From NCBI GenBank assembly GCA_037200385.1, contig JBBCGL010000001.1, positions 4,231,418 through 4,295,417 of the forward strand: a stretch of DNA of 64,000 nt. Reading direction: 5' to 3'. The position numbers and the translations under genes are program-made. Source of the DNA: Rhizomicrobium sp. (lineage in GTDB: Bacteria; Pseudomonadota; Alphaproteobacteria; Micropepsales; Micropepsaceae). Of the stretch, positions 12,707 to 32,400 are shown piece by piece. A model generated the notes under the pieces. It worked only from the letters and a program-made list of their open reading frames with translations, searched no databases and was not told the origin of the DNA. How positions within the stretch are numbered: position 1 is the stretch's first letter; each line of letters begins with the position of its first letter.

Positions 12707-13035
12707 GGCCCCTCGCCGCGAACGTCCCGCCGGATCTTGGCGGGGTCAAGCGCTTCGATGTCGCGACGCCGCTGGGCGAGACTTCCAATTCTCGTAGGCA
12801 TTTATGGCATAACTTATTGGAAATATTATATTCTCGGCACCCGGGATAGCTCAAGCGCCCGCTTCAAGCTCGTGACCATTCCGGCGGGTCGGCAACCTTC
12901 GCCCCGCGACCCAAAACTCGTCGGGCCAGTCTTTACTCTAGTAAAACGATATAGTATAGAGACGATGCTGCTTGTTGGTGGGCCTCCGGTCCCCTTTCCC
13001 GGCGGCGGACGGATTTTTGACGTGGGGGTTTAGGG
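12707..13035. other. Divergent promoter region, no gene seen
   Basis: 329 bp between the DUF2946/receptor operon (minus) and the small-ORF/receptor operon (plus). It contains two AT-rich islands: one at 12809-12832 (a degenerate match to the island-wide operator, upstream of the DUF2946 gene) and one at 12935-12957 (a good match). The rest is GC-rich and I see no coding frame with a plausible ribosome site. Confidence 0.6.
12935..12957 (+). promoter_or_regulatory. Island operator, copy 1
   Basis: ACTCTAG, 7-bp spacer, ATATAGT, then AT. Lies 78 bp upstream of the small gene at 13036 and the receptor that follows. One of eight copies with identical half-site spacing in this island. Confidence 0.65.
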
Positions 13036-13272
13036 GTGGACGGCATCGACAGCCTCGCGCGCCGATGGAAGCGCGAATATGGCAGCTTTGCCGAATGGCA
13101 TCTGCGCCGCAAGATTGTGCGATTGCGCGACTGGGGCGATGACGCGGGGGCCGATCTTCATCAGCGGGTGCTTGAACATTGCGAAGGCCGGAGGCCGGCT
13201 GCGCCTGGCCGTCCCGCGCCCGGATTCAGATGGCCTGTCGTCGCATTTCGCCGCGGCGGCCTGCGCGTGTAA
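13036..13272 (+). CDS. Small hypothetical protein (DUF6961-like pattern)
   Basis: 78 codons from a GTG start. The N-terminal two thirds (W-K-R-E-Y-G ... I-V-R-L-R-D-W-G-D-D-A-G) resemble the short sphingomonad proteins grouped as DUF6961, which share a helix, a G-D-x-A-G turn and a second helix; their function is unknown. The C-terminal third is Pro/Arg/Gly-rich and may be non-homologous read-on. The frame ends 28 bp before the receptor gene and lies downstream of operator copy 1, so it would be the first gene of that transcript. A long overlapping frame exists in another phase, so coding is not certain. Confidence 0.45.
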   Translation: MDGIDSLARRWKREYGSFAEWHLRRKIVRLRDWGDDAGADLHQRVLEHCEGRRPAAPGRPAPGFRWPVVAFRRGGLRV

Positions 13273-13300
13273 GAAGAAACATCGTTGTTCGAGGGGTATG

Positions 13301-15550
13301 ATGAAGACCGAGTTTGTTGCTGCGTCGCTGGCACTGATCCTGATATCGAGTCCGGCGTTGGCCGATACATCGCCGACGGCGATTGAGACCGTTACGGTCA
13401 CGGCGGAGAAGCGCGTAGAGTCCGCGCAGAATGTCGGCATCGCCCTGACGGTGCTGTCCGGCGACGATCTCGCGAAGCACAACGTCACCCAGATCAACAA
13501 CCTGCAATATGCCACGCCGAGTCTCGAGATCGTTCCGGCTTTCGGCAGCGGCCAGCCCGAATTCCGCCTGCGCGGTGTCGGCTTCGACGACTATGGCTCC
13601 AACAACAGCTCGACCGTCGGCGTCTATGTCGATGAGGTCGCCTACCCCGTGCCGGCGCAGACACAAGGCCTGCTGTTCGACCTCGACCGCGTCGAGGTTC
13701 TGCGCGGGCCGCAGGGCACGCTCTACGGCCGCAACACCACGGGCGGTGCGATCAATTTCATCACCGGCAAGCCGACCGCCGATTTCAGCGCCGGCCTGAC
13801 CGCCGATTTCGACAGCCACGACGAATTCCATACGGAAGGCTTCGTTTCCGGCCCGATTTCGGACGATCTGCTCTTCCGCCTCGCCGCCACCACCGATCAG
13901 GGCGGCGCATGGCAGAAGAATCGCGAGAACGGTCAGTCGCTCGGCGACAAGGACACCAGCGCTTTTCGCGGCGAGCTGCAATGGAATGCATCGAGCACGG
14001 TCAATTTCCTGCTCGAGGGCCATTGGGGCTACGACGATTCCGAGCCTACCGGCCTTTACCTGTTCGATCCCATCCCCAACATCTATCTCGGTGGGCAGGT
14101 CGTGCCCGCCTTTACCAATACGGCGCAAACCGGGTGGGGCGGCTCGGACGTGTTCGCGGGACTCATCGGCAAGCCGGCCGACGTCAAGCCGTTCCACGAC
14201 ACGACCAGTGGCGGCGTAAGCCTGCGCGCGAACGCCGATCTCGGCTTCGCTACGCTGACTTCGATCACATCCTATGAGAATCTGGACCGCAAGGAATACA
14301 ACGATTGGGATGCGTCCTCGCTGGCTTATGCGGGGACCTACTTCGACACCAAGGCGAATGTTTATTCGCAGGAGTTGCGGCTTGCATCGAACGACGACGC
14401 GGCGCCGCTCACCTGGCTCGTCGGATTCTACTTCTCGCATGAGGATCTGGACGAGATCTTCGATTCCGACTTCTGGCAGTCGCTCGGCTTCGTCACCCAG
14501 ACGACTTACAATCAGCATGTCGAGAGCGAAGCCTTGTTCGGGCAGGTCCATTATCGCTTCAATGAGCAGTGGTCGCTCATCGGCGGCCTGCGCGGCGAAA
14601 ACGAGCACCGCGAGCAGAAGAACTATGTGACCTCCGGGGTCTACGCGCCCGGCACGACGCCGGCGGGCTTCAGCGCGCCGGCCGACAAGACGCTCAACGG
14701 CACCAACCTCTCCGGCAAGGCGGAGCTGGAATATAAGCCCGCGGAGGAGACGCTGCTCTATGCCAGCGTCAGCGAAGGCGTGAAATCCGGCGGGTTCACG
14801 TCCTACAACGTGCCCAGCGCCAGCGCGGTCGATGCCTTCAAGCCGGAGACGCTGTGGGCGTATGAGGCGGGCTTCAAGACCACGCTCGCCGACGGCACGC
14901 TGCAGCTCAACGGCGCGGGATTCTACTACGATTACCACAATCAGCAGGTGCAGTCGGCGATCTGGTCCGATTTCGGTGCCATCGGCGCGATCGTCAACGC
15001 GCGCAAGTCGCATATCTACGGCTTCGAATTCGAGGGCAAGTGGCAGCCGATTCCCGAGCTCCAGCTTTCGCAGTCGGTCGGCTGGAAGGACGGCAAGTTC
15101 GACGAATACGACAACGATCTCGACATCGCCGCCACCACCGCGCTGTGCGTGCCGGCCCCGGTCTGCGTGCCGCCGGGCAACACGCTCAACCCGGTCTACG
15201 TCAACCGCAAGGGTGCGCGCGTCGGCTTCGCGCCGTGGAGCTATGGCGGATCGGCCGCCTATACGTTCCTGCTGCCGGGCTATTCGCTCGAGGCGGAGGC
15301 CGACTATGCCTTCCACGATCATTTCGATCCGCTGCTGCTGGGCCCGGTCTACTACGTCCACTCCTACTGGATCGCGAATGCGAACCTCACGCTCACGCCA
15401 GAGGACCAGCCGTGGTCGGTTGCGTTGTTCGGCCATAACATCTTCAATGCGAATTACGACACCACGCGCAACTTCTTCCTGACGGATATCGACATCGCGC
15501 AGCGCGGCGAGCCGGCGACGGTCGGTGTTCGCCTCAGCCTGAAATACTGA
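13301..15550 (+). CDS. TonB-dependent receptor (sulfur island, first)
   Basis: 749-residue TBDR with signal peptide (MKTEFVAASLALILISSPALA), TonB-box-like ETVTVTAEKR, plug motif VEVLRGPQGTLYGRNTTGGAINFITGKP and a C-terminal strand ending LSLKY, typical for BAM recognition. It belongs to the large sphingomonad/Caulobacter class used for uptake of varied organic compounds. GAGGGG 4-10 bases before ATG 13301 supports this start; a second ATG directly before it is also possible. An operator copy lies upstream and an alpha/beta hydrolase follows after 7 bp. The shared operator with cysE/ssuD and the oxygenase genes suggests an organosulfur ligand; the exact ligand cannot be read from sequence. Confidence 0.95.
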   Translation: MKTEFVAASLALILISSPALADTSPTAIETVTVTAEKRVESAQNVGIALTVLSGDDLAKHNVTQINNLQYATPSLEIVPAFGSGQPEFRLRGVGFDDYGSNNSSTVGVYVDEVAYPVPAQTQGLLFDLDRVEVLRGPQGTLYGRNTTGGAINFITGKPTADFSAGLTADFDSHDEFHTEGFVSGPISDDLLFRLAATTDQGGAWQKNRENGQSLGDKDTSAFRGELQWNASSTVNFLLEGHWGYDDSEPTGLYLFDPIPNIYLGGQVVPAFTNTAQTGWGGSDVFAGLIGKPADVKPFHDTTSGGVSLRANADLGFATLTSITSYENLDRKEYNDWDASSLAYAGTYFDTKANVYSQELRLASNDDAAPLTWLVGFYFSHEDLDEIFDSDFWQSLGFVTQTTYNQHVESEALFGQVHYRFNEQWSLIGGLRGENEHREQKNYVTSGVYAPGTTPAGFSAPADKTLNGTNLSGKAELEYKPAEETLLYASVSEGVKSGGFTSYNVPSASAVDAFKPETLWAYEAGFKTTLADGTLQLNGAGFYYDYHNQQVQSAIWSDFGAIGAIVNARKSHIYGFEFEGKWQPIPELQLSQSVGWKDGKFDEYDNDLDIAATTALCVPAPVCVPPGNTLNPVYVNRKGARVGFAPWSYGGSAAYTFLLPGYSLEAEADYAFHDHFDPLLLGPVYYVHSYWIANANLTLTPEDQPWSVALFGHNIFNANYDTTRNFFLTDIDIAQRGEPATVGVRLSLKY

Positions 15551-15557
15551 GGGCGCC

Positions 15558-16523: not shown

Positions 16524-16539
16524 CGCTGCTTGCCGCCCC

Positions 16540-16569
16540 GGCCGAGCGTCGCGTCAGCAACGCTCGGCC
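16540..16569. terminator. Bidirectional hairpin between hydrolase and ssuD
   Basis: Perfect 10-bp stem GGCCGAGCGT / ACGCTCGGCC with a 10-nt loop, midway between two convergent stop codons (16523 and 16585). Position and symmetry suit a shared terminator for both strands. Confidence 0.65.
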
Positions 16570-16584
16570 GCCAGCTTGAGCGAA

Positions 16585-17703
16585 TTACCCCGCCGCTGCG
16601 CGCAGCGGCGTCTCGGTCCGGCTGTCGCCGAGTCCGAGCGCGGGAAACAGCAGCTCGGCGACGCGATAGGCTTCTTCGAGATGCGGATAGGCCGATCCGA
16701 TCACGGTATCGACACCCAGCGCTTGGTATTCGCGGATGCGCTCGGCCACGGTCTGCGGATCGCCTACCAGCGCCGTCGCAGCGCCTTCGCGCACCAACCC
16801 GATGCCGGCCCACAGATTGGGGCTGATCTCCAGCTTGTCGGTCTTGCCGCCGTGCAGCGCAACCATGCGGCGCTGGCCCTCGGACTGCTCCACGCGCTTG
16901 GCGATGCGCGCCTGTGCCGCCGCGATGATCTCCGGCGTCAGCCGGCTGATCAGGCGGTCGGCGGCCTCCCAGGCTTCCGCTTCGGTTTCGCGCACGATGA
17001 AGTGCAGGCGGATGCCGAACCGTATCTTGCGGCCGGCTTTGGCCGCGGCCTCGCGCACCTCCTTGAATTTCTCGGCGACCTGCGCGGGCGGCTCGCCCCA
17101 GGTGAGGTAGAGATCGGCATGTTCGCCGGCCACCGCGACGCCGGCCGCGGACGATCCGCCGAAATAGATCGGCGGATAGGGCGTCTGCACCGGCGGGAAG
17201 ACGAGCGGCGTGCCGCCCTTCGCGGAAAGATGCTTGCCGTCGAAGTCGATCGGCGCGCCCTGCATGATGCGCCGCCAGAGCGTCAGGAATTCGCCGGTCT
17301 GCACATAGCGCTCGTCGTGATCGAGGAACAGGCCGTCATAGGCAAGCTCCGTCGGATTGCCGCCGGTCACCACGTTCAGCAGCAGCCGGCCGTTGGAGAT
17401 CTGGTCCAGCGCGGCCGCTTGCCGGGCGGCGAGCGCCGGCGTCTGGATTCCCGGACGGAGCGCGACCAGGAATTTGAGGCGCTCGGTCAACGGCGCCAAG
17501 GCCGACGCCAGCGTCCAGCCGTCGAGGCAGCCATGGCCCGTGGGCAACAGAACGCCGCCATAACCCAGGCGGTCGGCGGCCGAGGCAATCTCACGCAGAT
17601 AGCCGAAATCGGCCGGCCGGCGCAATTCGTTCGAGCCGAGATAGCTGCCGTCGCCGGCGCTCGGGAGGAACCAGAAGAAGTTCAACTTGCTGTCGTGGGT
17701 CAT
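16585..17703 (-). CDS. ssuD: FMNH2-dependent alkanesulfonate monooxygenase
   Basis: 372-residue luciferase-like flavin monooxygenase that splits the C-S bond of alkanesulfonates to give an aldehyde and sulfite, using FMNH2 from a partner reductase. It follows E. coli SsuD closely: [27 protein letters not shown] (with the conserved active-site-entrance Cys), [47 protein letters not shown] and [13 protein letters not shown]. Start ATG 17701-17703 follows a GGCGGAAA site. It lies 65 bp downstream of cysE on the same strand, linking sulfite release directly to cysteine synthesis. No ssuABC transporter or ssuE reductase is in the window, which is unusual for an ssuD locus. Confidence 0.95.
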
Positions 17704-17768
17704 GGGATTTCCGCCTTCGATGGGAGTGTCATTTCCGGTCGAGTTGCGCCATGGCGCGGGAGGGATAT

Positions 17769-18716
17769 TCAAACATCGCGCGTCTGGGCCTGGGTGATGT
17801 TGCTTCCCGGCGGCACGCTTTGGGTCAGCCATACATTGCCGCCGATCGTCGAGCCGCGGCCGATGGTGATGCGTCCCAGGATCGTCGCGCCGGCGTAGAT
17901 CACGACGTCGTCTTCCACGATGGGGTGGCGTGCGACGCCCTTGACCAATATGCCGTCGCGGCCGACCGGAAAGCGCTTGGCGCCCAGCGTGACGGCCTGA
18001 TAGAGCCGCACCCGGTCGCCGAGGATCGCCGTCTCGCCGATCACCACGCCGGTGCCGTGATCGATGAAGAAACTCGCACCGATCTCGGCGCCGGGATGGA
18101 TATCGATGCCGGTCCGGGAATGGGCGATGTTGGAGATCAGCCGCGCAATGAGCGGCGCGCCGAGGAGATGGAGTGCGCGCGCCAGCCGGTAATGGATGAC
18201 GGCCACCATGCCGGGATAGCCAAGCAGGATTTCCGTGACCGTCGTTGCCGCCGGATCGCCTTCATAAGCCGCTTGCAGATCGCCCACCAGCAGCGCGCGG
18301 ATCGCGGGAAGCCGCGCCGCAAAGGCCCTGACGATATCGCCGGTCACGCGGTCGGCCGCGTCGCGCTCCGGCGCGTCGCCGGTAACGGGATGGGCGCGGC
18401 GAATCTGTTCCTGCAACGCCGCCAGCGTGTCCTCCAGCACGCCGCGGACGAAGCCGTCGATGCGTTCGCCGGTGAGCTCCGGCTGGCCGTAATGCGTGGG
18501 GAAAAGCACGGCGGACAGGCTTTCGACGATCTCGGCGATGGCCGTGGCGGAGGGAAGCCGCCGGGGGATGCCCCCCTCGCGGATGTTGTGGGTGATCTCG
18601 CGGGATCGGCGCAGTTCGGCGACGACGGCATCGAGCGTTCCGGTGTCCACCGCACCTTCCTTGCGGCGCGGTCCGGATGATCCTTCGCGAACGGCGACTT
18701 CAGAAGCGTTTCGCAT
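17769..18716 (-). CDS. cysE: Serine O-acetyltransferase
   Basis: Forms O-acetylserine from serine and acetyl-CoA, the carbon acceptor for sulfide in cysteine synthesis. The 315-residue protein has an alpha-helical N-terminal half and a C-terminal left-handed beta-helix of hexapeptide repeats ([51 protein letters not shown]). The [10 protein letters not shown] and TLGAKRF motifs are those of the EpsC-type serine acetyltransferases. It is the first gene of a cysE-ssuD operon with operator copy 2 located 62 bp upstream of its start. Likely expressed when sulfate or cysteine is scarce, to pull released sulfite/sulfide into cysteine. Confidence 0.95.
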
Positions 18717-18778
18717 GTTGTAACGACCGCGACCGGCATCGCCGGCCGCGCCCCGGCCTCAATTGAAAATCCAATTAT

Positions 18779-18801
18779 AATCTATCAGAATAGTATTGTA
18801 T
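18779..18801 (+). promoter_or_regulatory. Island operator, copy 2
   Basis: AATCTAT, 7-bp spacer, GTATTGT, then AT. It lies 62 bp upstream of cysE (minus strand). The right half is the most diverged of the eight copies. Confidence 0.55.
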
Positions 18802-18844: not shown

Positions 18845-19213
18845 TCACGCCTCGCGCGCCTGTCTCAACACATCGAGATGAAGCGGCAGCGGCGGTCCGA
18901 GCCAGAGGCAGGAGGTCGCATGGTCTCCATAGTCGTCGCCCGTCACCGGATGCACGAGGACGCTCAAGCCTTCGCGCTTCAGCATCAGCCAAGGCACGAG
19001 TCGGCCGAAGTCTTCGCGTGCGAAGGCGATCTGGTACATCGGTTGGCTGTGTGGCCCGACCGGCGCGTCATGCCAGCGGCCGAGCGTCACAGCGAAGGTC
19101 TGTCCGACCGCCTCGCGCAGCCGGGCGGCGGCCGGCCTGGTTTGCGGCGTGAAATATACGTGGGCGTGGAAGCCCTGGATGATCTGCAGGTCGGGATCCC
19201 ATGATTGCGTCAT
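18845..19213 (-). CDS. DOPA 4,5-dioxygenase family protein
   Basis: 122-residue protein of the small DOPA-dioxygenase family (extradiol ring cleavage of catechol-type substrates). The conserved histidines are visible: FHAHVYF near residue 16, HSQPMYQIAF near 55, and VHPVTGDDYGDHA near 87. Its ATG overlaps the stop codon of the upstream flavin monooxygenase gene (ATGA), so the two proteins are translationally coupled. The pairing suggests that the monooxygenase frees a phenolic or catecholic product from an organosulfur compound, which this enzyme then opens; the substrate is inferred. Confidence 0.88.
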   Translation of the reverse strand: MTQSWDPDLQIIQGFHAHVYFTPQTRPAAARLREAVGQTFAVTLGRWHDAPVGPHSQPMYQIAFAREDFGRLVPWLMLKREGLSVLVHPVTGDDYGDHATSCLWLGPPLPLHLDVLRQAREA

Positions 19214-20562
19214 GCTGATACCCGCTCGGCCGGCTTGGCGAAGAAGCGGTTCTCCGGCCGCGGCAGGCCGAGGTTCTCGCGCAGGGTCGTGCCTTCGTAC
19301 TCGCGTCGGAAGATGCCGCGGCGCTGCAGCTCCGGCACGACCAGGTCCACGAAGTCATCCAGCCCTTGCGGCACCGTGGGGAACATGATGTTGAATCCGT
19401 CGCAGGCGTTGGTCAGCAGCCACTCTTCCATCCGGTCGGCGATCGTCTTGGGCGTGCCGACGAACGCAAGCCCGCCATAGGCGCCCACGATACGCGCCAG
19501 CTCGCGGACGGTCAGGTTGTCCCGCCGGGCGCGGTCGATCAGCGCCTGGCGGCCGCTCTGGCTGGCATTGGTCTCGGGCAGGTCCGACGGCAGCGGCCCG
19601 TCGAGGTCGAAGCCGGAAACGTCCGTACCCAGCCGCATCGACAGATTCGGCAGTCCGCTGTCCGGATGGACGAGGCTGTCCAGCAGCTCCCGTTTCCGGT
19701 GTGCCTCCGCGTCCGTGTCACCGACCACGACCAGCGCGCCCGGCAGAACTTTCAGGTGGTCGCGCGGCCGCCCCAGCCTGTCGAGCCGGCCCTTCACGTC
19801 CGCATAGAAACGCTGCGCATCGGCCAGACGCCCGCCGGCGGCGAAGATCACCTCGGCCGTTTCGGCAGCGATCTGCTTGCCGGCCTCGGATGCGCCGGCT
19901 TGCACGATCACCGGCCAGCCCTGGATCGGGCGGCCGACATTGAGCGGGCCGCGCACCTTCAGGAATTCGCCCTTGTGGTCGAGGACGTGCAGCTTCTCGG
20001 GATCGAAATAGATCGCATTCTGCGTGTCGCGGATGAAGGCATCGTCCGCCCAGCTGTCCCACAGCCCGGTCACCACGTCGAAGAACTCACGCGCGCGGCG
20101 GTAGCGGGTGTCGTGCTCCCAATGCTCCTCCAGCCCGAAATTCCACGCTTCCGTCGGGTTGCCGGACGTGACGAGGTTCCATCCCGCGCGTCCGCCGCTG
20201 ATGTGATCGAGCGACGCGAATTTGCGCGCGACGTGATAGGGCTCGTTGTAGGTTGTCGAGGCCGTGGCGACGAGGCCGATGCGCTCCGTCACCATCGCCA
20301 GCGCCGGCAGCAGGGTGAGCGGATCGAACGACGTCACCGTCGCGCTGCGCTTCAGCGCCGACATCGGCATGTTCAGCACCGCCAGGTGATCGGCCATGAA
20401 GAAGGCGTCGAATTTCCCCTGCTCGAGCTTTTGAATCAGCCGCACCAGATGCTTCAGGTTGAAATTGGCATCCGGCCAGGCGCCCGGGTAGAGCCACCAG
20501 GCGGTGTGGATTCCGACGGGCCGCATGAAGGCGCCGAGCTTCAATTGCCGTGTGCTGCTCAT
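19210..20562 (-). CDS. NtaA/SnaA/DszA-family FMNH2-dependent monooxygenase
   Basis: 450-residue luciferase-like flavin monooxygenase. The N-terminal G-A-F-M-R-P-V-G-I-H-T-A-W-W and F-F-M-A-D-H-L segments, SGGRAGWNLVTSGNP, GLWDSWADDA and the C-terminal PELQRRG block are those of the NtaA/SnaA/DszA branch, which includes dibenzothiophene-sulfone and aminopolycarboxylate monooxygenases. In sulfur islands such proteins usually desulfurise sulfones or sulfonates. The ATGA overlap with a DOPA-dioxygenase-like gene suggests an aromatic substrate. Operator copies 3 and 4 lie upstream in the long divergent region. Needs reduced flavin from a reductase not encoded nearby. Confidence 0.93.
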   Translation of the reverse strand: MSSTRQLKLGAFMRPVGIHTAWWLYPGAWPDANFNLKHLVRLIQKLEQGKFDAFFMADHLAVLNMPMSALKRSATVTSFDPLTLLPALAMVTERIGLVATASTTYNEPYHVARKFASLDHISGGRAGWNLVTSGNPTEAWNFGLEEHWEHDTRYRRAREFFDVVTGLWDSWADDAFIRDTQNAIYFDPEKLHVLDHKGEFLKVRGPLNVGRPIQGWPVIVQAGASEAGKQIAAETAEVIFAAGGRLADAQRFYADVKGRLDRLGRPRDHLKVLPGALVVVGDTDAEAHRKRELLDSLVHPDSGLPNLSMRLGTDVSGFDLDGPLPSDLPETNASQSGRQALIDRARRDNLTVRELARIVGAYGGLAFVGTPKTIADRMEEWLLTNACDGFNIMFPTVPQGLDDFVDLVVPELQRRGIFRREYEGTTLRENLGLPRPENRFFAKPAERVSA

Positions 20563-20803: not shown

Positions 20804-20826
20804 AGTCTATCTAGCGAATATAGTAT
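20804..20826 (+). promoter_or_regulatory. Island operator, copy 3
   Basis: AGTCTAT, 7-bp spacer, ATATAGT, then AT. Located 241 bp upstream of the flavin monooxygenase start; its TATAGT half could also serve as a -10 element. Confidence 0.65.
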
Positions 20827-21036: not shown

Positions 21037-21059
21037 ATACACTAGTAAGTTGATAGACT
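21037..21059 (-). promoter_or_regulatory. Island operator, copy 4
   Basis: On the minus strand: AGTCTAT, 7-bp spacer, CTAGTGT, then AT. It is 71 bp upstream of the receptor start. A similar half-site, GATACTCTTATCAA, lies just to its left and forms a larger inverted arrangement with TTGATAGACTATC. Confidence 0.6.
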
Positions 21060-21130: not shown

Positions 21131-23491
21131 ATGCGCTCCGGCGCAAAAAGACTTTCGTCCATCCGGTTGGCGTTGCTGGCAGGCAGTGCTGCGTTCATGA
21201 CATCCGGGGCGTATGCCGCAGATGCCGGCGTCGGTGACACCGTCGCGCCGATCGTGGTGGCCAATGCCGCCGCGTCGGCCGAAACCATCGAGACCATCGT
21301 GGTCACCGGCCGGCACCGTGCCGAGAACAACCAGGATGTCCCGATTCCGATTTCGCTGATCGCGGGCGACAAGCTGAAACTGGAGCATGCCGACCGTATC
21401 GCCGACTATGCGGACAAGGTGCCGAACTTTTCCGCGGTCCAGCAGAACACCCGCGTATCGCAATTCTCGATTCGCGGTCTCGGCGGCAACGCCAGTTACG
21501 ACGGCGTCGAGTCGGGTGTCGGCCTGATCGTCGACAATGTCGTGTTCACCCATGTCGGCTTCAGCTGGTTCGACTTCGTCGATCTCGATCACGTGGAAGT
21601 CCTGCGCGGGCCGCAGGGCACGCTGCTCGGCAAGAACACCACCATCGGTGCCGTCGTCATCACGACACAGGAGCCGAGCTTCACGCCGCAGGCGGATATC
21701 GAAGCCACCTACGGCAATCACGACCGGGAACAGATCCGCGCCAATGTGACGGCGCCGATCATCGACGACGAACTGGCGTTTCGCCTGACCGTGTCGGGCG
21801 ACAAGGGCAATGGCTGGATCAAGAACAACGACAACGACGATCACCTGCTCAACACCGACCGGTGGTCGGTGCGCGGCCAGTTGCTGTTCACGCCCACCAG
21901 CAATTTCCGCGATCGGCTGATCATCGAGCACAACCAGACCGACGAGATCAACAACTACTACCCCGCGGTCGCCGATCCGAACTACGCGAATGGCGCGGTG
22001 CGGGTGGGCTGGTCCAAGCTGCTGCAAGGCGTCTTCGGCTACACGCCGAGCTTCGACCTGACCAAGGGCGCGAGCCTCGATACGCAGGGGATCACCCATT
22101 CGTCCGTCAATGGCATATCCAACCAGTTCGACTGGACTGTCGCCGACCACACGATCACGTCGATCACGGCGTTCCGCAGTCTGCGCTTCCGGCCGTACAA
22201 CGACTCCGACCTGTCGCCGCTCCCGATCTTCCGCGGCGGCTACGATGTGGACGTGTCGCAATATTCACAGGAATTGCGCGTCGCGTCGCCGGTGGGCCAG
22301 GCCTTCGAGTACCAGGGAGGCGTCTACCTGCTGCACGAGCGCGTGTTGAGCGACAACCGGGACATCTTCTTCTCGGATGCCTCCGCCTTCCTGTTGGGTA
22401 ACCCGGCGGCACCGTCGGCGATCATGAACGGCGTGGAGTACGACCAGGCCGGTCGCGCCACGACGGACAGCTATGCCGGCTTCGCGCAGGGCACCTGGCA
22501 CGTCACCGATGCCGCCGCGATCACCGGCGGCCTGCGCTACACCTGGGAGCACAAGGCAGGCGGCGACGACGCCACATCCTTCGGCGGCGCGACGCTGACT
22601 GGCGTGCCGCTCGCCACGCGCAATGCCGTCATCGGCAGCTTCGGCGGTCTGTTTTCCGTCGCCCAGAAGAAGGATTTCGGCTCGGTCTCCTGGCTGATCA
22701 ATCCTTCCTATAAGATCGACGACAACATCTTCGCCTATTTCTCCGTGAGCCATGGCGAGAAGTCGGGCGGCATCAACACAACGGCCGCGCCGGGCATCCC
22801 GGTCATCATCAAACCGGAACGGGCCACCGACTACGAAGTCGGCGTCAAGACGACTTGGCTCGAGGGTCGACTGATCGCCAACCTCAACCTGTATTGGAAC
22901 GACATCTCGGACTATCAGGCGTCCTCCGCCGTGACCACGGGACCGACGACCAAGATATTCCTCGCCAATGCGGCCCGGGTGCGCCAGCGCGGCGTCGAGC
23001 TGGAGACCACCTATTCTCTCCTCGACAACCTGACGATTTCGCTGAGCGGCGCTTACAACAATGCCACGTTCGTATCCTATGACGATGCGCCGGCGCCGAT
23101 CGAGTTGACGAACGTCACCAAATCGGTGGACTTGTCCGGCTATCAGCTTCCGGGGGCGCCGGTATGGAATGGGCAGCTCGACATCAACTACGAGCAGCCG
23201 CTGGACGACGATTTCACCGCCTTTACCTATCTCAACCAGTCCTTCCGCTCGAAGACGTCGCTTTACAACCCGGTTTCGCCCTACGCCTACCAGGATGCCT
23301 ACGGCCTGACCAATTTCGGCATCGGCGTGAAGACGAGCGATGGGAAATACTCGCTGCTCCTCTGGTCGAAGAATCTCGCCGACCAGCGCTATCTCATCGG
23401 CATCGGCGGCGCATCGGCCATCACGCCGGTCGTCGGCGTGCTGGGCGATCCACGCACCTTCGGCGTCACGTTCGACGCGCATGTGGAATAG
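21131..23491 (+). CDS. TonB-dependent receptor (sulfur island, second)
   Basis: 786-residue TBDR. Signal peptide with cleavage near SGAYAAD, TonB-box-like ETIVVTGRHR, plug motif VEVLRGPQGTLLGKNTTIGAVVITTQEP, then a long barrel. It is of the same broad class as the receptor at 13301 but clearly distinct in sequence. ATG 21131 begins directly before a lysine/arginine-rich n-region; GTG 21104 with AGGGG upstream is an alternative that adds nine residues. It is followed after 63 bp by a small secreted protein and preceded by operator copy 4. Probable importer of an organosulfur compound used by the neighbouring monooxygenases. Confidence 0.94.
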   Translation: MRSGAKRLSSIRLALLAGSAAFMTSGAYAADAGVGDTVAPIVVANAAASAETIETIVVTGRHRAENNQDVPIPISLIAGDKLKLEHADRIADYADKVPNFSAVQQNTRVSQFSIRGLGGNASYDGVESGVGLIVDNVVFTHVGFSWFDFVDLDHVEVLRGPQGTLLGKNTTIGAVVITTQEPSFTPQADIEATYGNHDREQIRANVTAPIIDDELAFRLTVSGDKGNGWIKNNDNDDHLLNTDRWSVRGQLLFTPTSNFRDRLIIEHNQTDEINNYYPAVADPNYANGAVRVGWSKLLQGVFGYTPSFDLTKGASLDTQGITHSSVNGISNQFDWTVADHTITSITAFRSLRFRPYNDSDLSPLPIFRGGYDVDVSQYSQELRVASPVGQAFEYQGGVYLLHERVLSDNRDIFFSDASAFLLGNPAAPSAIMNGVEYDQAGRATTDSYAGFAQGTWHVTDAAAITGGLRYTWEHKAGGDDATSFGGATLTGVPLATRNAVIGSFGGLFSVAQKKDFGSVSWLINPSYKIDDNIFAYFSVSHGEKSGGINTTAAPGIPVIIKPERATDYEVGVKTTWLEGRLIANLNLYWNDISDYQASSAVTTGPTTKIFLANAARVRQRGVELETTYSLLDNLTISLSGAYNNATFVSYDDAPAPIELTNVTKSVDLSGYQLPGAPVWNGQLDINYEQPLDDDFTAFTYLNQSFRSKTSLYNPVSPYAYQDAYGLTNFGIGVKTSDGKYSLLLWSKNLADQRYLIGIGGASAITPVVGVLGDPRTFGVTFDAHVE

Positions 23492-24344: not shown

Positions 24345-24367
24345 AGTCTAGTTGAAAGATAGAGTTT
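24345..24367 (+). promoter_or_regulatory. Island operator, copy 5
   Basis: AGTCTAG, 7-bp spacer, ATAGAGT, then TT. Located 35 bp upstream of the GTG start of the MFS transporter and 73 bp from the divergent small membrane protein. Confidence 0.65.
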
Positions 24368-24402
24368 AAATGGTATGGTGCCGGCCGGCATGGAGGGTCG
24401 CG

Positions 24403-25794
24403 GTGGATACGACGGCGTGGAAGAGGGACGCGAGGCAACCCGTCGGGCGTCTGCTCGCTTTTTCCGCGCTCGGGATACCGCTCGCAGCCGTGTTCCTTCC
24501 GCTGGGCGTCTATCTGCCGCCTTTTTATGCCCAGACCATGGGACTCGGGCTTGGCACGGTCGGTATCGTCTTCATGGCGAGCCGCTTGTGGAATGCGCTA
24601 TGCGATCCGCTGATCGGCCTCCTGTCCGACCATACGCGCAGCCGCTTCGGGCGCCGCAAGCCCTGGATCGCGGCGGGCGCCGTGATTTTCATCGCGGCGG
24701 TCGTCGCGGTCTATTGGCCGCCGCAACATCTGACCGCGTTTCACCTCGGCTTGGCGCTGTTTGCGCTCTATCTCGGCTGGACGATGATCGGCACGCCGCT
24801 TGCCGCCTGGGCGAGCGAACTGGCCGCCGGCTATCACGAACGCAGCCGCGTCCAGACCTTCCTGCAAACGGGCGGCGCACTCGGGCTGGTCTTGACCTTG
24901 CTCCTGCCGGCGCTGGTCGACCAGTTCGTGGCGCGGGGCGAGTTCGAGAAGATCGCGGCGATGGGCGCCTTCGCCATCGTCACTTTCGTACCGGCCGTCC
25001 TGTTCCTGCTGACTCGCTTTCGCGAGCCGCCGCGTCCGCCCGCGCCGTCAAGCGCCTCCACGCTGGCGGCGCTTCGGACGTTCGCCACCAATCCGCTTGT
25101 TCTGCGCGTCATGGCTTCCGATTTCTTCGTCGCGACGGGGCAGGGGATCCGTGGCGCGCTCTTCGTCTTCTTCGTCAGCGCCTATATGGGCTTGCCGAAA
25201 TGGGCGAGCCTCCTATTCCTGCTGCAATTCGTGTTCGGCGTCTTCGCCGCGCCGCTATGGCTGCGTGTCGGCTACCGCTTCGGCAAGCATCAGACCGTGG
25301 TGCTGGGAGAAATCGCCCAGATCGCGATCAATCTCGGTCTGCTTTTCATCGCGCCGGGCCGCTTCTGGCCGCTGCTGGCGCTTACCGTCGCGCAGGGGTT
25401 TGCGCAGGGCTCCGGCAATCTGATGCTGCGCTCCATCGTCAGCGATCTGGCGGACGATCACCGGCTCAAGACCGGCAAGGAGCAGTCCGGTCTTCTGTTT
25501 TCGATCTTCAACGTCACCAACAATGCCGCGGCCGCCGCCGCCGTCGGCATCGCCTATCCGCTGATCGCCTTCTTCGGATTCACACCGGGTCGTGCCAATT
25601 CGCATGCCGCGCTGTCGGCTCTTGCCGTCCTGTTCGCGGTGGGACCGGCATTGGGTCATCTTTTCTCGGCCGTCCTGATCTGGCGCTTTCCGCTCGACGA
25701 GCGCCGCCATGCCGAACTGCGCATCGCGCTCGAAGAGCGCGGCCGTGCGGACTATCTCGGCCGAGCCGAACCTTTCCCTCAGGCCCTCAACTAG
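24403..25794 (+). CDS. GPH-type MFS symporter (sulfur island)
   Basis: 463-residue sodium/proton symporter of the glycoside-pentoside-hexuronide (MFS_2) family with about 12 transmembrane helices. Signature regions: ALGIPLAAVFLPLGVYLPPFYA in helix 1, W-N-A-L-C-D-P-L-I-G-L-L-S-D-H-T-R-S-R-F-G-R-R-K-P-W after helix 2. GTG at 24403 is chosen over the ATG at 24370 because GGAGGG sits six bases before it and operator copy 5 ends at 24367. It is 9 bp upstream of a TauD/AtsK-type dioxygenase and shares its transcript. It probably carries the dioxygenase substrate (a sulfate ester or sulfonate) across the inner membrane, a job that ABC transporters do in E. coli. Confidence 0.9.
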   Translation: MDTTAWKRDARQPVGRLLAFSALGIPLAAVFLPLGVYLPPFYAQTMGLGLGTVGIVFMASRLWNALCDPLIGLLSDHTRSRFGRRKPWIAAGAVIFIAAVVAVYWPPQHLTAFHLGLALFALYLGWTMIGTPLAAWASELAAGYHERSRVQTFLQTGGALGLVLTLLLPALVDQFVARGEFEKIAAMGAFAIVTFVPAVLFLLTRFREPPRPPAPSSASTLAALRTFATNPLVLRVMASDFFVATGQGIRGALFVFFVSAYMGLPKWASLLFLLQFVFGVFAAPLWLRVGYRFGKHQTVVLGEIAQIAINLGLLFIAPGRFWPLLALTVAQGFAQGSGNLMLRSIVSDLADDHRLKTGKEQSGLLFSIFNVTNNAAAAAAVGIAYPLIAFFGFTPGRANSHAALSALAVLFAVGPALGHLFSAVLIWRFPLDERRHAELRIALEERGRADYLGRAEPFPQALN

Positions 25795-25803: not shown

Positions 25804-26730
25804 ATGGGTTTGCATGAGAAGATCGAAGACATCGAACTGGAGTACCGCCCCGTCGCCGGGCGGATCGGCGCCGAAATTCTGGGGGTCAAGCTCGGCGGCG
25901 ACCTTGAGGCGCGCACCGTCGCTGCCATCCGCAAGGCGCTGTTCAAGCATAAGGTGATATTTTTCCGCGATCAGCACGATCTGACGGATGCGCAGCAGGA
26001 AGCCTTTGGCAAGCTGCTGGGCAATCTTGTGCCGCATCCGACCGTTCCAAAGATCGAGGGAACGGAAAGCGCGCTGAACATCGTCTCCGACGGTACCTAT
26101 GCCGCGAACCAGTGGCATACCGACGTGACCTTCGTGGACGCTTATCCGCTCGCGTCGATCCTGCGCGCCGTGCATCTGCCGCCGAAGGGCGGCGACACGG
26201 TGTGGGCCAACACGGCCGCCGCCTATGAGCACCTGCCGGTGCCGCTGCGCGAGCTGGCGGACAAGCTCTGGGCACTGCACACCAATGCGTTCGACTATGC
26301 CGCCGCCCGCCCCGACGCGTCGGCAGACCGCGTGAAGCATCACAGGAATGTCTTTGCTTCCACGGTCTACGAGACCGAGCATCCGCTGGTCCGCGTCCAT
26401 CCGGAGACGGGAGAGCGCACGCTGCTGCTCGGAAATTTCGCGCAGAAGATCATCGGGCTCAACCGCGACGACTCCGCGCGTCTCATCGCCATTTTCCAGG
26501 ACCACATCACGCGGCTGGAGAACACGGTACGCTGGCATTGGGCGCTGGGCGACGTCGCGATCTGGGACAATCGTGCCACCCAGCACTACGGCATCGGCGA
26601 TTTCACCGAGAGGCGCGAGCTGCATCGCGTGACGATCGACGGCGACGTGCCCGTCGGGATCGATGGCACGTCCAGCGTGACGCGTCGCAAGGAGGTCAAG
26701 GCGCCAGACCTCCAGCACGCGGCGGAATGA
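25804..26730 (+). CDS. TauD/TfdA-family Fe(II)/2-oxoglutarate dioxygenase (AtsK-like)
   Basis: 308-residue non-heme iron dioxygenase. Iron ligands His105 and Asp107 (QWHTDVTF) and His261 (TQHYGIGD) and the 2-oxoglutarate-binding Arg275 (LHRVT) are present, so the active site is complete. The sequence fits the TauD/AtsK branch, which oxidises taurine or alkyl sulfates at the carbon next to the sulfo group, releasing sulfite or sulfate and an aldehyde. Similarity appears closer to the alkylsulfatase AtsK than to TauD, but I cannot measure it. It follows the MFS carrier by 9 bp. Its stop codon overlaps the start of the next small gene (ATGA). Confidence 0.93.
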
Positions 26731-27080: not shown

Positions 27081-27539
27081 TCAGGCGGCGCGGCGCTTCG
27101 CCTTTTTGGCGGGCTTCCGGGCCCGCTCCATCAAAAGCGCACTCGCCAGAGTCGTGTGGTCCAGAACGTCGGACGCGGCGTCACGCACGCGACGCATGCT
27201 CTGGCGGACCAGGCAATTCGATTCGTCCTTGCAATCCTTGCAGCGGCGATAGGCGGTGACGCTCGCGCAGGCGATGGGCGCCAGGGGGCCGTCGATGATC
27301 CGTACGATTTGTCCGAGCGTAATCTCGCTCGGCGGCTTTGCGAGCGCATAGCCGCCGTGCTGGCCGCGTACGGTGCGGACCAGGCCCTGTCCGCGGAGCT
27401 CCAGGAGAATGAGATCGAGGAACTTCTTGGAGATGTTTTCCTCAGTCGCGATGTCCCACGCCTGCAGAAGCTGCCCCGGTGCGAGGCGCGAGAGCGCGAA
27501 CATCGCCTTGAAGGCGTATTTGGCTTTGTTGGACAGCAT
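27081..27539 (-). CDS. Rrf2-family regulator with four clustered cysteines
   Basis: 152-residue Rrf2 (IscR/CymR/NsrR) protein: winged HTH over about residues 1-65 (LLQAWDIATEENISKKFLDLILLELRGQGLV, then the R-G-x-x-G-G-Y wing), dimerisation helix, and Cys91, Cys100, Cys103 and Cys109 (spacing C-x8-C-x2-C-x5-C), close to where IscR and NsrR hold an Fe-S cluster. The C-terminus is a Lys/Arg tail. Rrf2 proteins of the CymR group repress sulfur-source genes when cysteine is plentiful. It lies in the middle of the sulfur island, and operator copy 6 lies 60 bp upstream of its start, so it is the best candidate regulator of the whole set, including itself. Confidence 0.92.
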   Translation of the reverse strand: MLSNKAKYAFKAMFALSRLAPGQLLQAWDIATEENISKKFLDLILLELRGQGLVRTVRGQHGGYALAKPPSEITLGQIVRIIDGPLAPIACASVTAYRRCKDCKDESNCLVRQSMRRVRDAASDVLDHTTLASALLMERARKPAKKAKRRAA

Positions 27540-27598
27540 TTGATCCCCAGCTGCGCTCTATATAGCCACCTGCCGGCGCTATCGCAATATTCGGTCAT

Positions 27599-27621
27599 TT
27601 AGTATAGAAATGCGCTAGACT
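27599..27621 (-). promoter_or_regulatory. Island operator, copy 6 (Rrf2 divergent promoter)
   Basis: On the minus strand: AGTCTAG, 7-bp spacer, CTATACT. It sits in the 97-bp gap between the Rrf2 gene (minus) and the esterase-like gene (plus), ending 15 bp before the preferred esterase start. Confidence 0.6.
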
Positions 27622-27636
27622 ATCATGGAGACTGAG

Positions 27637-28713
27637 ATGAGGCAGGACGCCGGCTGGAAGGAGGCAGCCCCCGAAACCACCGGCCCGTCCGCGGAACCGC
27701 GCCTGGCTTGGCAGGCCCGTGACGGGCAGCCAGCTGCCGAAGCCTTGCAGGTGAGTGCGCAGCTGGCGTGCCGCGCGCCCCAACCGTTCGACGACATCGA
27801 GGAGCTGCGTCGGCGCTACGAGGCGTGTCGCAAACCCTTTGTGCCGGCCCGTGAGGCGGTCGATAGCGTCTTCCACGTCCACCCGCGCGCCGGCGAAGGG
27901 CCGCCGGTGAGTGTCATCCGCCCGATCGCAAGCGTGGATCGAAAAAGCATGTCCGCCATTCTGTTCCTGCACGGCGGCGGTTGGACGGCCGGCACGTTCG
28001 AGATCTATGAGCCGCTCTGCCGGCAGATTGCGAACGCGACCGACAGCATCGTCGTCTATGTTCACTACCGTCTGGCCCCCGAACACCCTTTCCCGGCCGC
28101 TTTCGACGATACGCGCGCCGCGCTGCGCTGGGTCCACGCGAACCGCCGCTGGCTGGGGATAGACCCCGACCGGATCGCCCTTGCCGGCGATGGCGCGGGC
28201 GGCAATCTCGCCGCCGCAGCCTGTCTGGCGGAATGCAACGAAGCGACGGGCTATCAGCCGCATCGCCAGATTCTGCTCTATCCTTGTCTCGACATGTCGG
28301 CCTGCATGCCGTCGCACAAGACCCCGGATGCGCACGGTCCGCTGACGGCACAGATGCACCGCCGGTATCGCCAGGCTTATGCTGCCGGCCACAGCAAGCC
28401 CGGCCTGTGGCGTCTATCGCCGCTTTTCGCCTATGACGTGAGCCGTCTGCCGCCGTCGGTCATCCTGTATGCCGGTTTCGACCGCTTGCGCGACGAAGCG
28501 GTCGCCTATGCCGGGCGATTGCAGGAGAGCGGCGTTCCGGTCGAATCGCTCGGGTTCGCCGATATGATCCACGACTTCATGCTCCTGGGGGGCGCACTTG
28601 CCGCTGCCAATGTCGCCGTACGACGCGTGGCGCAGGCTGTCGCCGGCCTGCCCGCGGCCAAACCTCGCCAGAAGGGGTTCGGTTCGGGCACCTGCGCGCT
28701 GCCGACCATCTAG
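27637..28713 (+). CDS. HSL-type alpha/beta hydrolase homologue lacking the nucleophile Ser
   Basis: 358-residue member of the hormone-sensitive-lipase (bacterial HSL/AES) family. The oxyanion motif LHGGGW, YRLAPEHPFPAAFDD, the acid (FDRLRDEAV) and the His (MIHDFM) are all present, but the nucleophile elbow reads G-D-G-A-G-G: Gly186 (codon 28192-28194, GGC) replaces the usual Ser of GDSAGG. A normal esterase mechanism is therefore not possible. Start ATG 27637 has GGAG six bases upstream; the ATG at 27625 lies almost against operator copy 6. It stands alone on the plus strand, divergent from the Rrf2 gene, and converges with the aminotransferase gene. Either a pseudo-enzyme (binding/sensing) or a different chemistry. 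Confidence 0.88.
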   Translation: MRQDAGWKEAAPETTGPSAEPRLAWQARDGQPAAEALQVSAQLACRAPQPFDDIEELRRRYEACRKPFVPAREAVDSVFHVHPRAGEGPPVSVIRPIASVDRKSMSAILFLHGGGWTAGTFEIYEPLCRQIANATDSIVVYVHYRLAPEHPFPAAFDDTRAALRWVHANRRWLGIDPDRIALAGDGAGGNLAAAACLAECNEATGYQPHRQILLYPCLDMSACMPSHKTPDAHGPLTAQMHRRYRQAYAAGHSKPGLWRLSPLFAYDVSRLPPSVILYAGFDRLRDEAVAYAGRLQESGVPVESLGFADMIHDFMLLGGALAAANVAVRRVAQAVAGLPAAKPRQKGFGSGTCALPTI

Positions 28714-29807: not shown

Positions 29808-29867
29808 CGTTCACCGACAGGGATTGAGCACGACCGCCGGATCGTCGCCGGTCGATGGTAGCGAAGT

Positions 29868-30110: not shown

Positions 30111-30131
30111 CTTCAGCCTCGCACAGCCAGG

Positions 30132-30851
30132 TCAAAAGGTCTCGGCCCATGGCCGCAGATCGAGCTCGAGCGTCCAGGCGCTGCGGTGCTGGTGATGCAG
30201 AGCCCAGTAGGTTTCGGCGATCGCATCGATGGCGAGCAGGCCGTCCACCCCACGCTGCTCGCGTAGCTGCGGCGCACGCGACAGGAGCCTCTCGCCGCCG
30301 ATGCCGCCGTCGATCACGATATGGCCGACATGGATGTTCTTGGGTCCGTATTCTCGCGCGATGCTCTGCGCCAGGGCCCGTAAAGCGGCCTTTGCCGCGG
30401 CAAAGGGCGCGAAGTTCGCCTTGCCCCGCAGGCTGCCGGACGCGCCGGTGAAGAAGAGCGAGCCGCCGCCATTGTCGAGCAATACCGGAAGGGCCGCCTG
30501 CGCGACATGGAATCCGCCCAGCGCGTGCTCGCGCCAATGCTGCTCGAACGTCTCCGGCGTGACTTTCAGGAACGGCGCCGGCTGGTTGCTGCCGGCATTG
30601 TGGATGACCACTGCCAAGGGCGCGCGCCGGTTGGCGGCGGCGACGAAGCGCGCCACATCGGCGGCATTGGCCGCGTCGCCGACCAAGGCCTCGACATCGC
30701 CGCCCAGTGCCTTCGCGGTCTCTTCCAGCTTCGACGCGTTGCGGCCTGCAATCGCAACGGAAAACCCGCCATCAAGGAACCGCTTGGCAAGAGCCGCGCC
30801 CAGACCCTCACGGGCACCGACGCCGACGATCAGTATGCTTTGCGCCGCCAT
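30132..30851 (-). CDS. Atypical SDR oxidoreductase with Phe in place of catalytic Tyr
   Basis: 239-residue short-chain dehydrogenase/reductase. The glycine motif is GVGAREGLG, NAG appears as HNAGSN, and the catalytic Ser is Ser138 (TGASGS), but the YxxxK motif reads F-A-A-A-K (Phe150, Lys154). Relatives with Phe here form a known atypical branch with G-P-K-N-I-H-V-x-H-x-V-I-D-G after it. Start ATG 30849-30851 has GGAGG five bases upstream. Operator copy 7 lies 27 bp upstream and overlaps the end of the upstream flavoprotein gene, giving this gene its own regulated promoter. Followed by the Cys-rich gene and the aminotransferase. Confidence 0.88.
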   Translation of the reverse strand: MAAQSILIVGVGAREGLGAALAKRFLDGGFSVAIAGRNASKLEETAKALGGDVEALVGDAANAADVARFVAAANRRAPLAVVIHNAGSNQPAPFLKVTPETFEQHWREHALGGFHVAQAALPVLLDNGGGSLFFTGASGSLRGKANFAPFAAAKAALRALAQSIAREYGPKNIHVGHIVIDGGIGGERLLSRAPQLREQRGVDGLLAIDAIAETYWALHHQHRSAWTLELDLRPWAETF

Positions 30852-30877
30852 TTGGTCCTCCAGCGAAAGGTGCTGAA

Positions 30878-30900
30878 AGTCTATCCAACAAGTAGAGTAT
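30878..30900 (+). promoter_or_regulatory. Island operator, copy 7
   Basis: AGTCTAT, 7-bp spacer, GTAGAGT, then AT. It overlaps the stop codon of the flavoprotein gene and lies 27 bp upstream of the SDR start (minus strand), so it marks an internal promoter. Confidence 0.65.
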
Positions 30901-32278
30901 GTCCAGCGGTTTCGGCGGCCTGCCGCGACGTTGCCGTTCCTTGCGCCGATATGGTCCAAGCGATCCGGCGGGCTTGGCGAGCGATCTCGGGCATTGCGGT
31001 GATTTCCCACCACTTGCCGCGGGTCAGTGCGCCCATCGCGAACAGGTCCGGCTGGGGGGCGCCGTCGCGGTCGAGGACGCGGTCGGCATCGTCGACATCG
31101 ATGCCGAGATCGGCCGGGCCCGGGCGTGCCAAGCCGCGCGCGATCAGCGTTTTCAGAAGGGTACCCGGGCTGCGATCGACATCGGAGTTCGGGCCGCTGC
31201 AGTTCACCACCCGGCCGAAGACCGCCTCAAGTCGACCGGTCGCCGTGGCGATGTGCGCCAGCACGGAATTGCAATGCGGCGTCAGGTCCAAAAGACGTCC
31301 GCGAAGGATCTCGACGCGCCCGTCGGCGATCGCGTCCGCGATCTGGCGGCCCTGATGCGGCGCGACGCGATGGCGGTGCGTGTTGAAGATGGAGAGGCCG
31401 TGGCGCAGCGCCCGGCGCTTGTCGGCTTCGCGCAACGCCGACCACGCCTCGCGCCAGTGCGGGCGCATGGCGTCGATGAAAGCCTGCCATTCCGGCGCCG
31501 GTGCGTCTTTCCTGACGGCGGATCGCAGGCTTTGCAGCAGCATCGAGGCCCGGTCGGGATAGGGACCGGGAAGCGCCGCGCCCGCCTGGTGTGCGACATG
31601 CATCTGCGGCAGACGCCCATGGCGCGACAGCATGACGATCTTCCCTCTATGTCCCTCGTCCAGGCGAGTCAGCGCAGTGTCGACGGCGGTCAGGCCACTG
31701 CCGACGATGAGGATGCGCGCCGTGGACTCGACGGACCACGGCCCCCAAGGATCGTCGACGACCGCGTGGGCGACCTCGCCGCCGAACAAGCGGGCCAGCG
31801 GCCGCGGCGATCCATGCCCGGTCGCCAGGACGAGTTTGCCGGCCGACAACACGCCGGCAGTGTGAAAGACGCACCACCCGTCCTGTTGCCGCCCCAGCCC
31901 GACGACCTCGGACGAAAGGATGTTCAATTCGATCTTCCCGCGAAACTGCTGCCGCGTGCTCTCGACCAGATCGACGAGATAGCGTCCATACAATTCTCGC
32001 GGAACGAATCTGTCGGGCCCATCCGGGATGCGGACATGCTGGCGGCCGAGCCAGTCAACGAATTGATCCGGTTCCTCCGCGTCCGCCGACATCTTCTCGG
32101 CAGGAACGTTGAGGACATGCGCCGGATCGGATGTTCCATAGGCGGCGCCTTTCGCGAACTGCGCCTCCGGTCCCACGATGGTTATGGACAGTGGGCCGTG
32201 CGCGTTGCGCGCCAAGGCGCGGAACAGGGCGACCGCGGCGGCCCCGTTTCCGCAGATCGCCACGTCTTGCCGGTTCAC
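30881..32278 (-). CDS. FAD/NAD(P)-binding protein (NAD_binding_9 type)
   Basis: 465-residue flavoprotein with an N-terminal dinucleotide fold (ICGNGAAAVALFRAL), the family block K-G-A-A-Y-G-T-S-D-P-x-H-V-L-N-V-P-A followed by a D-Q-F-V-D-W-L segment, and a second nucleotide site ILIVGSGLTAVDTALTR near residue 180. These fit the PF13454-type oxidoreductases, whose substrates are mostly unknown. The GTG at 32276-32278 is chosen because AGGAGG lies six bases upstream; the longer frame has no ribosome site. It is divergent from the CmcJ-like gene, sharing operator copy 8 with it. Probably an oxygenase or dehydrogenase acting with that partner. Confidence 0.88.
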   Translation of the reverse strand: MNRQDVAICGNGAAAVALFRALARNAHGPLSITIVGPEAQFAKGAAYGTSDPAHVLNVPAEKMSADAEEPDQFVDWLGRQHVRIPDGPDRFVPRELYGRYLVDLVESTRQQFRGKIELNILSSEVVGLGRQQDGWCVFHTAGVLSAGKLVLATGHGSPRPLARLFGGEVAHAVVDDPWGPWSVESTARILIVGSGLTAVDTALTRLDEGHRGKIVMLSRHGRLPQMHVAHQAGAALPGPYPDRASMLLQSLRSAVRKDAPAPEWQAFIDAMRPHWREAWSALREADKRRALRHGLSIFNTHRHRVAPHQGRQIADAIADGRVEILRGRLLDLTPHCNSVLAHIATATGRLEAVFGRVVNCSGPNSDVDRSPGTLLKTLIARGLARPGPADLGIDVDDADRVLDRDGAPQPDLFAMGALTRGKWWEITAMPEIARQARRIAWTISAQGTATSRQAAETAGHTLLVG

Positions 32279-32377
32279 GCCGATCCTCCTGTGTTTGTCA
32301 GACAATGGCCCATTCCGCCTTTCGCGGCGGGATAGCCGGCAATTTTGCGGCCACGCCATGCAGGATACGCAAGTCAA

Positions 32378-32400
32378 AGTCTATTGACTCAATAGAGTAT
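32378..32400 (+). promoter_or_regulatory. Island operator, copy 8 (most symmetrical)
   Basis: AGTCTAT, 7-bp spacer, ATAGAGT, then AT. This copy contains the perfect palindrome CTATTGA-C-TCAATAG, showing the two-fold symmetry expected for a dimeric regulator. It lies in the divergent gap, 45 bp from the CmcJ-like start and 99 bp from the flavoprotein start. Confidence 0.7.

Follow-up and report, generated by a model that had tools for sequence, protein, structure and literature searches.

An inverted repeat before organic-sulfur genes of Rhizomicrobium looks like the operator of an undescribed Rrf2 circuit for scavenging sulfur

In enterobacteria the ssu and tau genes are under the control of CysB and Cbl, both LysR activators, and are induced upon sulfate limitation. 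In Firmicutes, CymR is a global repressor of sulfur and cysteine genes that senses cysteine through CysK (PMC2940859, in its available excerpt). Caulobacter IscR, of the same Rrf2 fold, has as its ligands C95, C105, C112 and H115 (partial text of PMC11475020). At the RNA level, a sponge counteracts SisA-D, the alphaR8 siblings of Caulobacter, and SisA acts as a repressor of TonB receptors (available portion of PMC12559287). Here we describe a 64-kb stretch of Rhizomicrobium DNA (the window) in which eight copies of one operator lie upstream of organic-sulfur genes. The arrangement has the look of a sulfur-scavenging control circuit that has not been described before, because the operator precedes similar genes here and in relatives and a likely switch protein is encoded beside it. 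In the open-access literature, which leaves subscription journals mostly outside its coverage, we found no recognisable description of this regulon. We consider it quite probable that the repeat is the operator of a sulfur-scavenging regulon under the Rrf2 protein encoded at 27081-27539, acting as a sulfur-status repressor.

All eight sites claimed by the sequence-only reading are present in the window, by pattern match and by matrix scoring. The form that it gave, A[GC]TCTA[TG]-N7-[ACG]TA[GT]AGT, holds exactly at five (12935, 20804, 24345, 30878 and 32378), and the other three depart from it by two mismatches (18779) or one (21039-21059 and 27601-27621, both minus); six of its positions stand, while 21037 and 27599 were each 2 bp off the 21-bp unit of these minus copies. 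The perfect CTATTGA-C-TCAATAG that it noted in copy 8 is there. The consensus is a 21-bp inverted repeat, AGTCTAT-N7-ATAGAGT, and an alignment of 23 sites showed that AT steps commonly flank it on both sides, extending the unit to ~25 bp. With a leave-one-out matrix trained on the other seven, each site ranked first in the window (15.9 to 26.0 bits). The full eight-site matrix scored the sites at 21.1 to 29.2 bits, against 10.8 for the next-best window position and 17.0 for the best score over 100 dinucleotide shuffles. The exact claimed form had 0 matches in 100 shuffles, and 200 column-permuted symmetric matrices gave at most two matches of at least 15 bits, against eight for the real matrix. 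Chance or AT-richness as the source of the repeat is ruled out by these shuffles and permuted matrices.

The sites and the genes of the island are collected in Table 1. A likely start codon lies within 100 bp of six of the eight sites; the exceptions are the 12935 site, ~340 bp before the likely start of receptor 1 (TBDR1), and the 20804 site, 242 bp before ntaA. CysE and TauD of the island both score under the strictest equivalog cut-offs, and the esterase, an aminotransferase, the SDR and the FAD protein have no evident sulfur role. The idea of one operator serving a common regulon with a sulfur theme is supported.

Table 1. Operators, genes and leader cores; positions are those of the window unless a genome or locus position is named
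Feature	Position	Strand	Context or basis
Operator copy 1	12935..12955	+	before TonB-dependent receptor 1, likely start 13298
Operator copy 2	18779..18799	+	63 bp before cysE (minus)
Operator copy 3	20804..20824	+	between ntaA (minus) and receptor 2 (plus)
Operator copy 4	21039..21059	-	72 bp before receptor 2, likely start 21131
Operator copy 5	24345..24365	+	before MFS-tauD
Operator copy 6	27601..27621	-	between rrf2 (minus, 62 bp) and esterase-like gene (plus); presumed autoregulatory
Operator copy 7	30878..30898	+	27 bp before likely SDR start (30851, minus)
Operator copy 8	32378..32398	+	between FAD/NAD(P)-binding gene (minus) and CmcJ-family gene (plus)
TonB-dependent receptor 1 (TBDR1)	13079..15550	+	Pfam Plug and barrel
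ssuD, FMNH2-dependent alkanesulfonate monooxygenase	16585..17832	-	TIGR03565 557 bits, cut-off 518
cysE-like serine O-acetyltransferase	17769..18716	-	TIGR01172 160.9 bits (below cut-off 210.65); EpsC NF041874 157.3 (above cut-off 150)
NtaA/DmoA-family FMN-dependent monooxygenase	19210..20562	-	TIGR03860 563.6 bits, cut-off 279.7
TonB-dependent receptor 2	21131..23491	+	Pfam; likely start 21131
MFS transporter (GPH type)	24370..25794	+	Pfam MFS_2
TauD/TfdA-family dioxygenase	25804..26730	+	Pfam PF02668 193.5 bits; NCBIfam taurine dioxygenase 222.7, below cut-off 313
rrf2, Rrf2-family regulator, 152 aa, Cys 91/100/103/109	27081..27539	-	Pfam PF02082; NCBIfam; CymR as top Foldseek match
Alpha/beta hydrolase (hormone-sensitive lipase type)	27625..28713	+	Pfam Abhydrolase_3
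Short-chain dehydrogenase (SDR)	30132..30851	-	Pfam adh_short
FAD-NAD(P)-binding protein	30881..32377	-	Pfam NAD_binding_9
CmcJ/NvfI-family oxidoreductase	32440..33291	+	NF041278 311 bits, cut-off 80
TetR-type regulator gene	33498-34082		
Extra-island operator	genome 471072		before sulfatase
Extra-island operator	genome 3788884		second tauD; peroxiredoxin on opposite side
Extra-island operator	genome 4721163		before luciferase-type monooxygenase
Extra-island operator	genome 4724983		before Mo-oxidoreductase and TonB receptor
Extra-island operator	genome 4733124		before NMT1-type (SsuA-like) binding protein
Extra-island operator	genome 2228557 (L009 9558, G000 C1)		before ECF sigma factor; FecR-like and TonB receptor genes near
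15-mer core	G000 C1:3788843-3788857 (L010 9844-9858)	-	
Other core-bearing loci	L099, L105, L097, L102, L103, L126, L123		

The window is part of a single contig of 5,008,785 bases, and scans of this genome by pattern and by operator model gave few matches rather than hundreds. The strict pattern ASTCTA-N9-TAKAST occurs at eight distinct places (six in the island and two elsewhere) and its reversed control at none; a looser consensus with two mismatches is less clean, with 11 matches against 5 for the reversed control. At E up to 10, a sequence-only operator model built from 23 sites of five genomes picked out 14 separate places in the 5.0 Mb genome, these being the eight of the island and six others, two of which belonged to the training set of the model. 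The places at 4.72-4.74 Mb constitute a second organosulfur cluster; no clear sulfur link was found in the neighbourhood of 2228557, with its ECF sigma, FecR-like and receptor genes. The earlier statement that no copy lies outside the stretch holds within the window but fails in the genome, where the strict pattern adds two places and the model six, and the regulon that was called local is dispersed, since operators also lie outside the island: it is spread over the genome and not confined to the island.

We looked for the operator in relatives, whose genes were mostly named by eye from translations, some with backing from Pfam, NCBIfam or BLAST (G000 denotes the genome under study). An orthologue of the Rrf2 protein (at least 58% identity) is found in nine of 41 scanned genomes of the genus, and a further one, at 79% identity, in one MAG of the genus. 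The operator model, run on the 41 genomes at E up to 1, had matches in 13. The orthologue genomes gave 14 distinct places (G000), 10 (G029), 9 (G028), 7 (G011), 4 (G016), 4 (G063), 1 (G010), 1 (G009) and 0 (G019); among the 32 genomes without the orthologue, five had one site each and 27 had none. Two or more sites thus occur in six of nine genomes with the orthologue and in none of 32 without it (Fisher p 1.9e-5, relatedness ignored). The model was trained on five of the nine orthologue genomes, and of the four left out of training G063 alone has two or more sites; G010 has one site by the model and weaker copies by matrix, the latter preceding a cysteine-synthase-like/Cys-Met gene pair and other sulfur-like genes (by eye). 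Of the 27 untrained sites in orthologue genomes, 21 lie before TonB receptor, TauD, Ssu-type, sulfatase, cysteine-synthesis or sulfate-uptake genes, the TonB receptor targets being weak evidence because such receptors are common in genomes of this kind. The remaining six lie at two LysR genes, a multicopper oxidase, an exported protein, a pyruvyl-transferase-like gene and a MacB-like locus; the C9:256831 site of G063, which precedes the pyruvyl-transferase-like gene and adjoins the 3' side of a Cys/Met PLP gene, was therefore scored as non-sulfur.

Maps of G028 and G029 show the island rearranged with the operator kept before orthologous genes, namely cysE, ntaA, both receptors, tauD, tauD2, the Mo-oxidoreductase and cmcJ/nad9, so that conservation before orthologues in relatives is borne out in these two genomes. 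Only one site is present in the whole MAG; it lies 31 bp ahead of the ntaA orthologue, and the MAG's own rrf2 has no operator. Operators at the rrf2 promoter are also present in G028, G010 and G011. In a comparison of orthologous promoters (27 pairs), identity is 91% for the ten core positions, 78% for the site as a whole and 72% for the flanks, a modest conservation footprint of the operator over its flanks. Across the class (385 genomes, E up to 0.1) the motif was found in 13 genomes, four of them of the same genus; eight others, of 0.6-2.2 Mb, we take for chance. G205, of another family, has a perfect AGTCTATCAATTTGATAGACT (L162 6591) before a 194-aa frame and a LysR-like gene, ~1 kb from a sulfatase-like gene (all by eye).

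A few neighbours of the operator in relatives are of separate interest. A multicopper oxidase gene lies near it in G029 (L103 4132-5769; Pfam-checked) and, by eye, a similar gene in G016 (L106 5609-7210); we know of no sulfur role for multicopper oxidases. Operator-like sites precede an exported protein in two genomes (L163 5272 and 5895; L111 3253), and one of these adjoins a POTRA-like outer membrane gene.

The Rrf2 gene within the island had been put forward as the natural regulator candidate, and this assignment is now well supported by the apparently autoregulatory sites together with the co-occurrence of orthologue and operator. The protein belongs to the Rrf2 superfamily (Pfam PF02082 126.4 bits, cut-off 30), and its AlphaFold2 model (pLDDT 82.5) has the winged-helix Rrf2 fold, with Foldseek matches to CymR, RsrR, IscR and NsrR; the cysteine stretch is modelled at low confidence (residues 91-100 only 53). 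It falls below the cut-offs of the NCBIfam equivalogs for CymR (NF047409, 82.4 bits vs 195), IscR (TIGR02010, 65.5 vs 207.55), RirA (51.2 vs 193) and NsrR (47.4 vs 182). The IscR ligand set of three Cys and a nearby His is absent: the cysteines are at 91, 100, 103 and 109, and His occurs only at 61 and 128. The arrangement C-x8-C-x2-C-x5-C is present in all 39 homologues compared and accounts for the sole cysteines in 38. A tree of these 39 separates a group made up of the ten orthologues (support 89/69) from a group of ten paralogues (99/99). The paralogue, 41% identical to the window protein and with the same Cys4 motif, is encoded beside porin and sulfate ABC genes (L049 9601-10035, G000 C1:4609618; L128, L109, L163), and a motif related to the operator precedes its porin operon in G063 (20.2 bits), G028 (13.4) and, weakly, G000 (4.2). 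In the class, 38 of 385 genomes have an Rrf2 homologue at E 1e-25 or better; at 10 of the 18 homologue loci read, from several families, sulfate ABC or TauE/SafE genes adjoin (L144-L157; spot-checked), and the Rrf2 homologue gene of three genomes, all from one family, is directly preceded by the palindromic TCTCTAGTTACCCTATAGAGA or by its complement (13.5 bits). Rrf2 may thus include a sulfur branch that is ancient in alphaproteobacteria, with the window protein as an organosulfur version.

We infer that this protein is the binder, that it represses, and that it reads a sulfur-status signal through its four cysteines. An Rrf2 dimer would bind the 21-bp inverted repeat, which tends to sit just before the presumed transcription start, its downstream half resembling a -10 box. 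With ample sulfur (cysteine or Fe-S supply) Rrf2 would repress, and upon sulfur limitation it would release the operator, freeing expression of TonB receptors and transporters for organosulfur compounds, of TauD and FMN monooxygenases that liberate sulfite, and of the Mo-oxidoreductase, sulfatases and cysteine-synthesis enzymes. The site at the rrf2 promoter suggests autoregulation, so Rrf2 would also repress itself. The four cysteines may permit direct sensing, via a cluster or thiols, instead of the CysK route.

Other proteins could in principle occupy these sites. The paralogue beside the sulfate ABC operon, or both paralogues together, would fit the position of that gene next to porin-cysPTWA and the related motifs before the porin operon; moreover, each of the five genomes that carry the paralogue alone has a single site, at TauE/SafE, a PALP enzyme (cysK-like), a LysR gene, a carbonic anhydrase and a GH3-like gene, and such single sites in orthologue-free genomes imply that the paralogue may bind the operator too. 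We nonetheless judge this unlikely to explain the regulon, since multi-site regulons follow the orthologue and not the paralogue, which most members of the genus carry, and the island site sits at the orthologue's own promoter. Binding by a LysR-type regulator or by the nearby TetR-type regulator is far less probable still. LysR genes do adjoin several sites in relatives, but they look like targets rather than constant neighbours; the TetR gene (Table 1) is missing from the island's surroundings in the maps of G028 and G029, which keep Rrf2, and was rejected as the regulator on that ground.

The most serious competitor, doubtful yet well ahead of these two, keeps both operator and protein but has Rrf2 activate, or answer an Fe-S or redox signal loosely tied to sulfur supply. 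The downstream half-site resembles a -10 box (at least 4 of 6) in 24 of 25 orientations, partly as a consequence of the repeat itself, while the -35 boxes are poor, with 5 of 6 matched in 2 of 25 orientations, which leaves the placement of the promoter tentative and would suit an activator equally. The invariant Cys4 motif would suit a cluster, and an Rrf2 protein has been described that is a repressor in its cluster-bound state and, when the cluster is absent, an activator of some genes (PMC4618611, available in part). Against this, the targets are genes of sulfur acquisition and not of Fe-S assembly, and the operator overlaps the presumed -10 region, as is typical of repression.

Alongside the favoured reading, a sulfur-status repressor, the comparison of promoters brought out a 15-mer, GTTTCCTCCCTGAAC, downstream of several operators, all outside the window; the window has no copy, and its TBDR1 leader lacks the core. 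Genome-wide, the 15-mer is found in 38 of 41 genomes of the genus (at most one mismatch), usually in a single copy. Of 13 loci tested, ten reach the gathering score for the suhB/MmgR small RNA (RF00519), and the remaining three are the operator-linked ones. Eight operators have the core 26-42 nt downstream (33 nt in G063), exact in six leaders and with one mismatch in two: those of tauD2 in G000, G028 and G029, of TBDR1 in G028 and G029, and of the G029 multicopper oxidase, plus one operator of G063 and, in the MAG, one in divergent orientation to ntaA. In G000, G028, G029 and G063, seven of 11 core copies are operator-linked. Most leaders are predicted to fold as hairpin-core-hairpin, with z below -2 in six of eight and folds no better than shuffles in two (z -0.95 and -0.55); in the tauD2 leaders, a long G+C stem and a T run come last, right before the gene. 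Four leaders fall below the RF00519 gathering score of 41 (L192 26.0, L121 20.5, L193 and L166 no match), and these sub-gathering scores make the leaders alphaR8-like but not members by that test. Rfam detected no structured RNA at 8000-36000 of the window up to E 0.5 and none at gathering in nine other loci. We tentatively envisage a two-layer circuit, in which a Cys4 Rrf2 repressor releases the organosulfur genes together with alphaR8-type sRNAs or leaders that would arise from the same operator promoters, and the sRNAs might switch the outer membrane from carbon to sulfur receptors, although we would sooner bet against it.

If our reading is correct, it names a regulator, an operator and a gene set for the use of organic sulfur in an alphaproteobacterial group, gives sulfur roles to many TonB receptors without known substrate, and adds to the iron, Fe-S and NO branches of Rrf2 a sulfur branch with a cysteine motif; through its leader sRNAs the circuit would be linked to the alphaR8 family, and few roles are known for the siblings in that family.

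Among known systems, CysB and Cbl serve the same gene classes as here, but as LysR activators, in place of which we find an Rrf2 protein. The alphaR8 sRNAs (MmgR, SisA-D; suhB RF00519) share with our leaders the 15-nt core between two hairpins, whereas the operator-linked copies lie in leaders of sulfur genes and have sub-gathering scores. IscR, RirA and NsrR have in common with the window protein the Rrf2 fold and cysteines after residue 90, but their target genes differ, and its C-x8-C-x2-C-x5-C contrasts with C95, C105, C112 and H115 of Caulobacter IscR (PMC11475020, in part). The earlier view that the operator is unlike known Rrf2 sites holds for two Caulobacter IscR motifs in the available part of that paper, which it does not resemble and which are the sole printed motifs compared. 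CymR is the top Foldseek match (2y75, TM 0.72 by query), with the Rrf2 fold common to both; in the alignment CymR lacks the cysteine stretch that is Cys4 in the window protein, and the targets here are TonB receptors and organosulfur oxygenases in an alphaproteobacterium. The predicted protein resembles CymR in fold and in targets, but scores below the CymR cut-off. What appears to be new here, judged from sequence, is a CymR-like sulfur regulon that has an operator of its own, a regulator with a Cys4 motif and TonB receptors among its targets, joined in places by an alphaR8-like leader.
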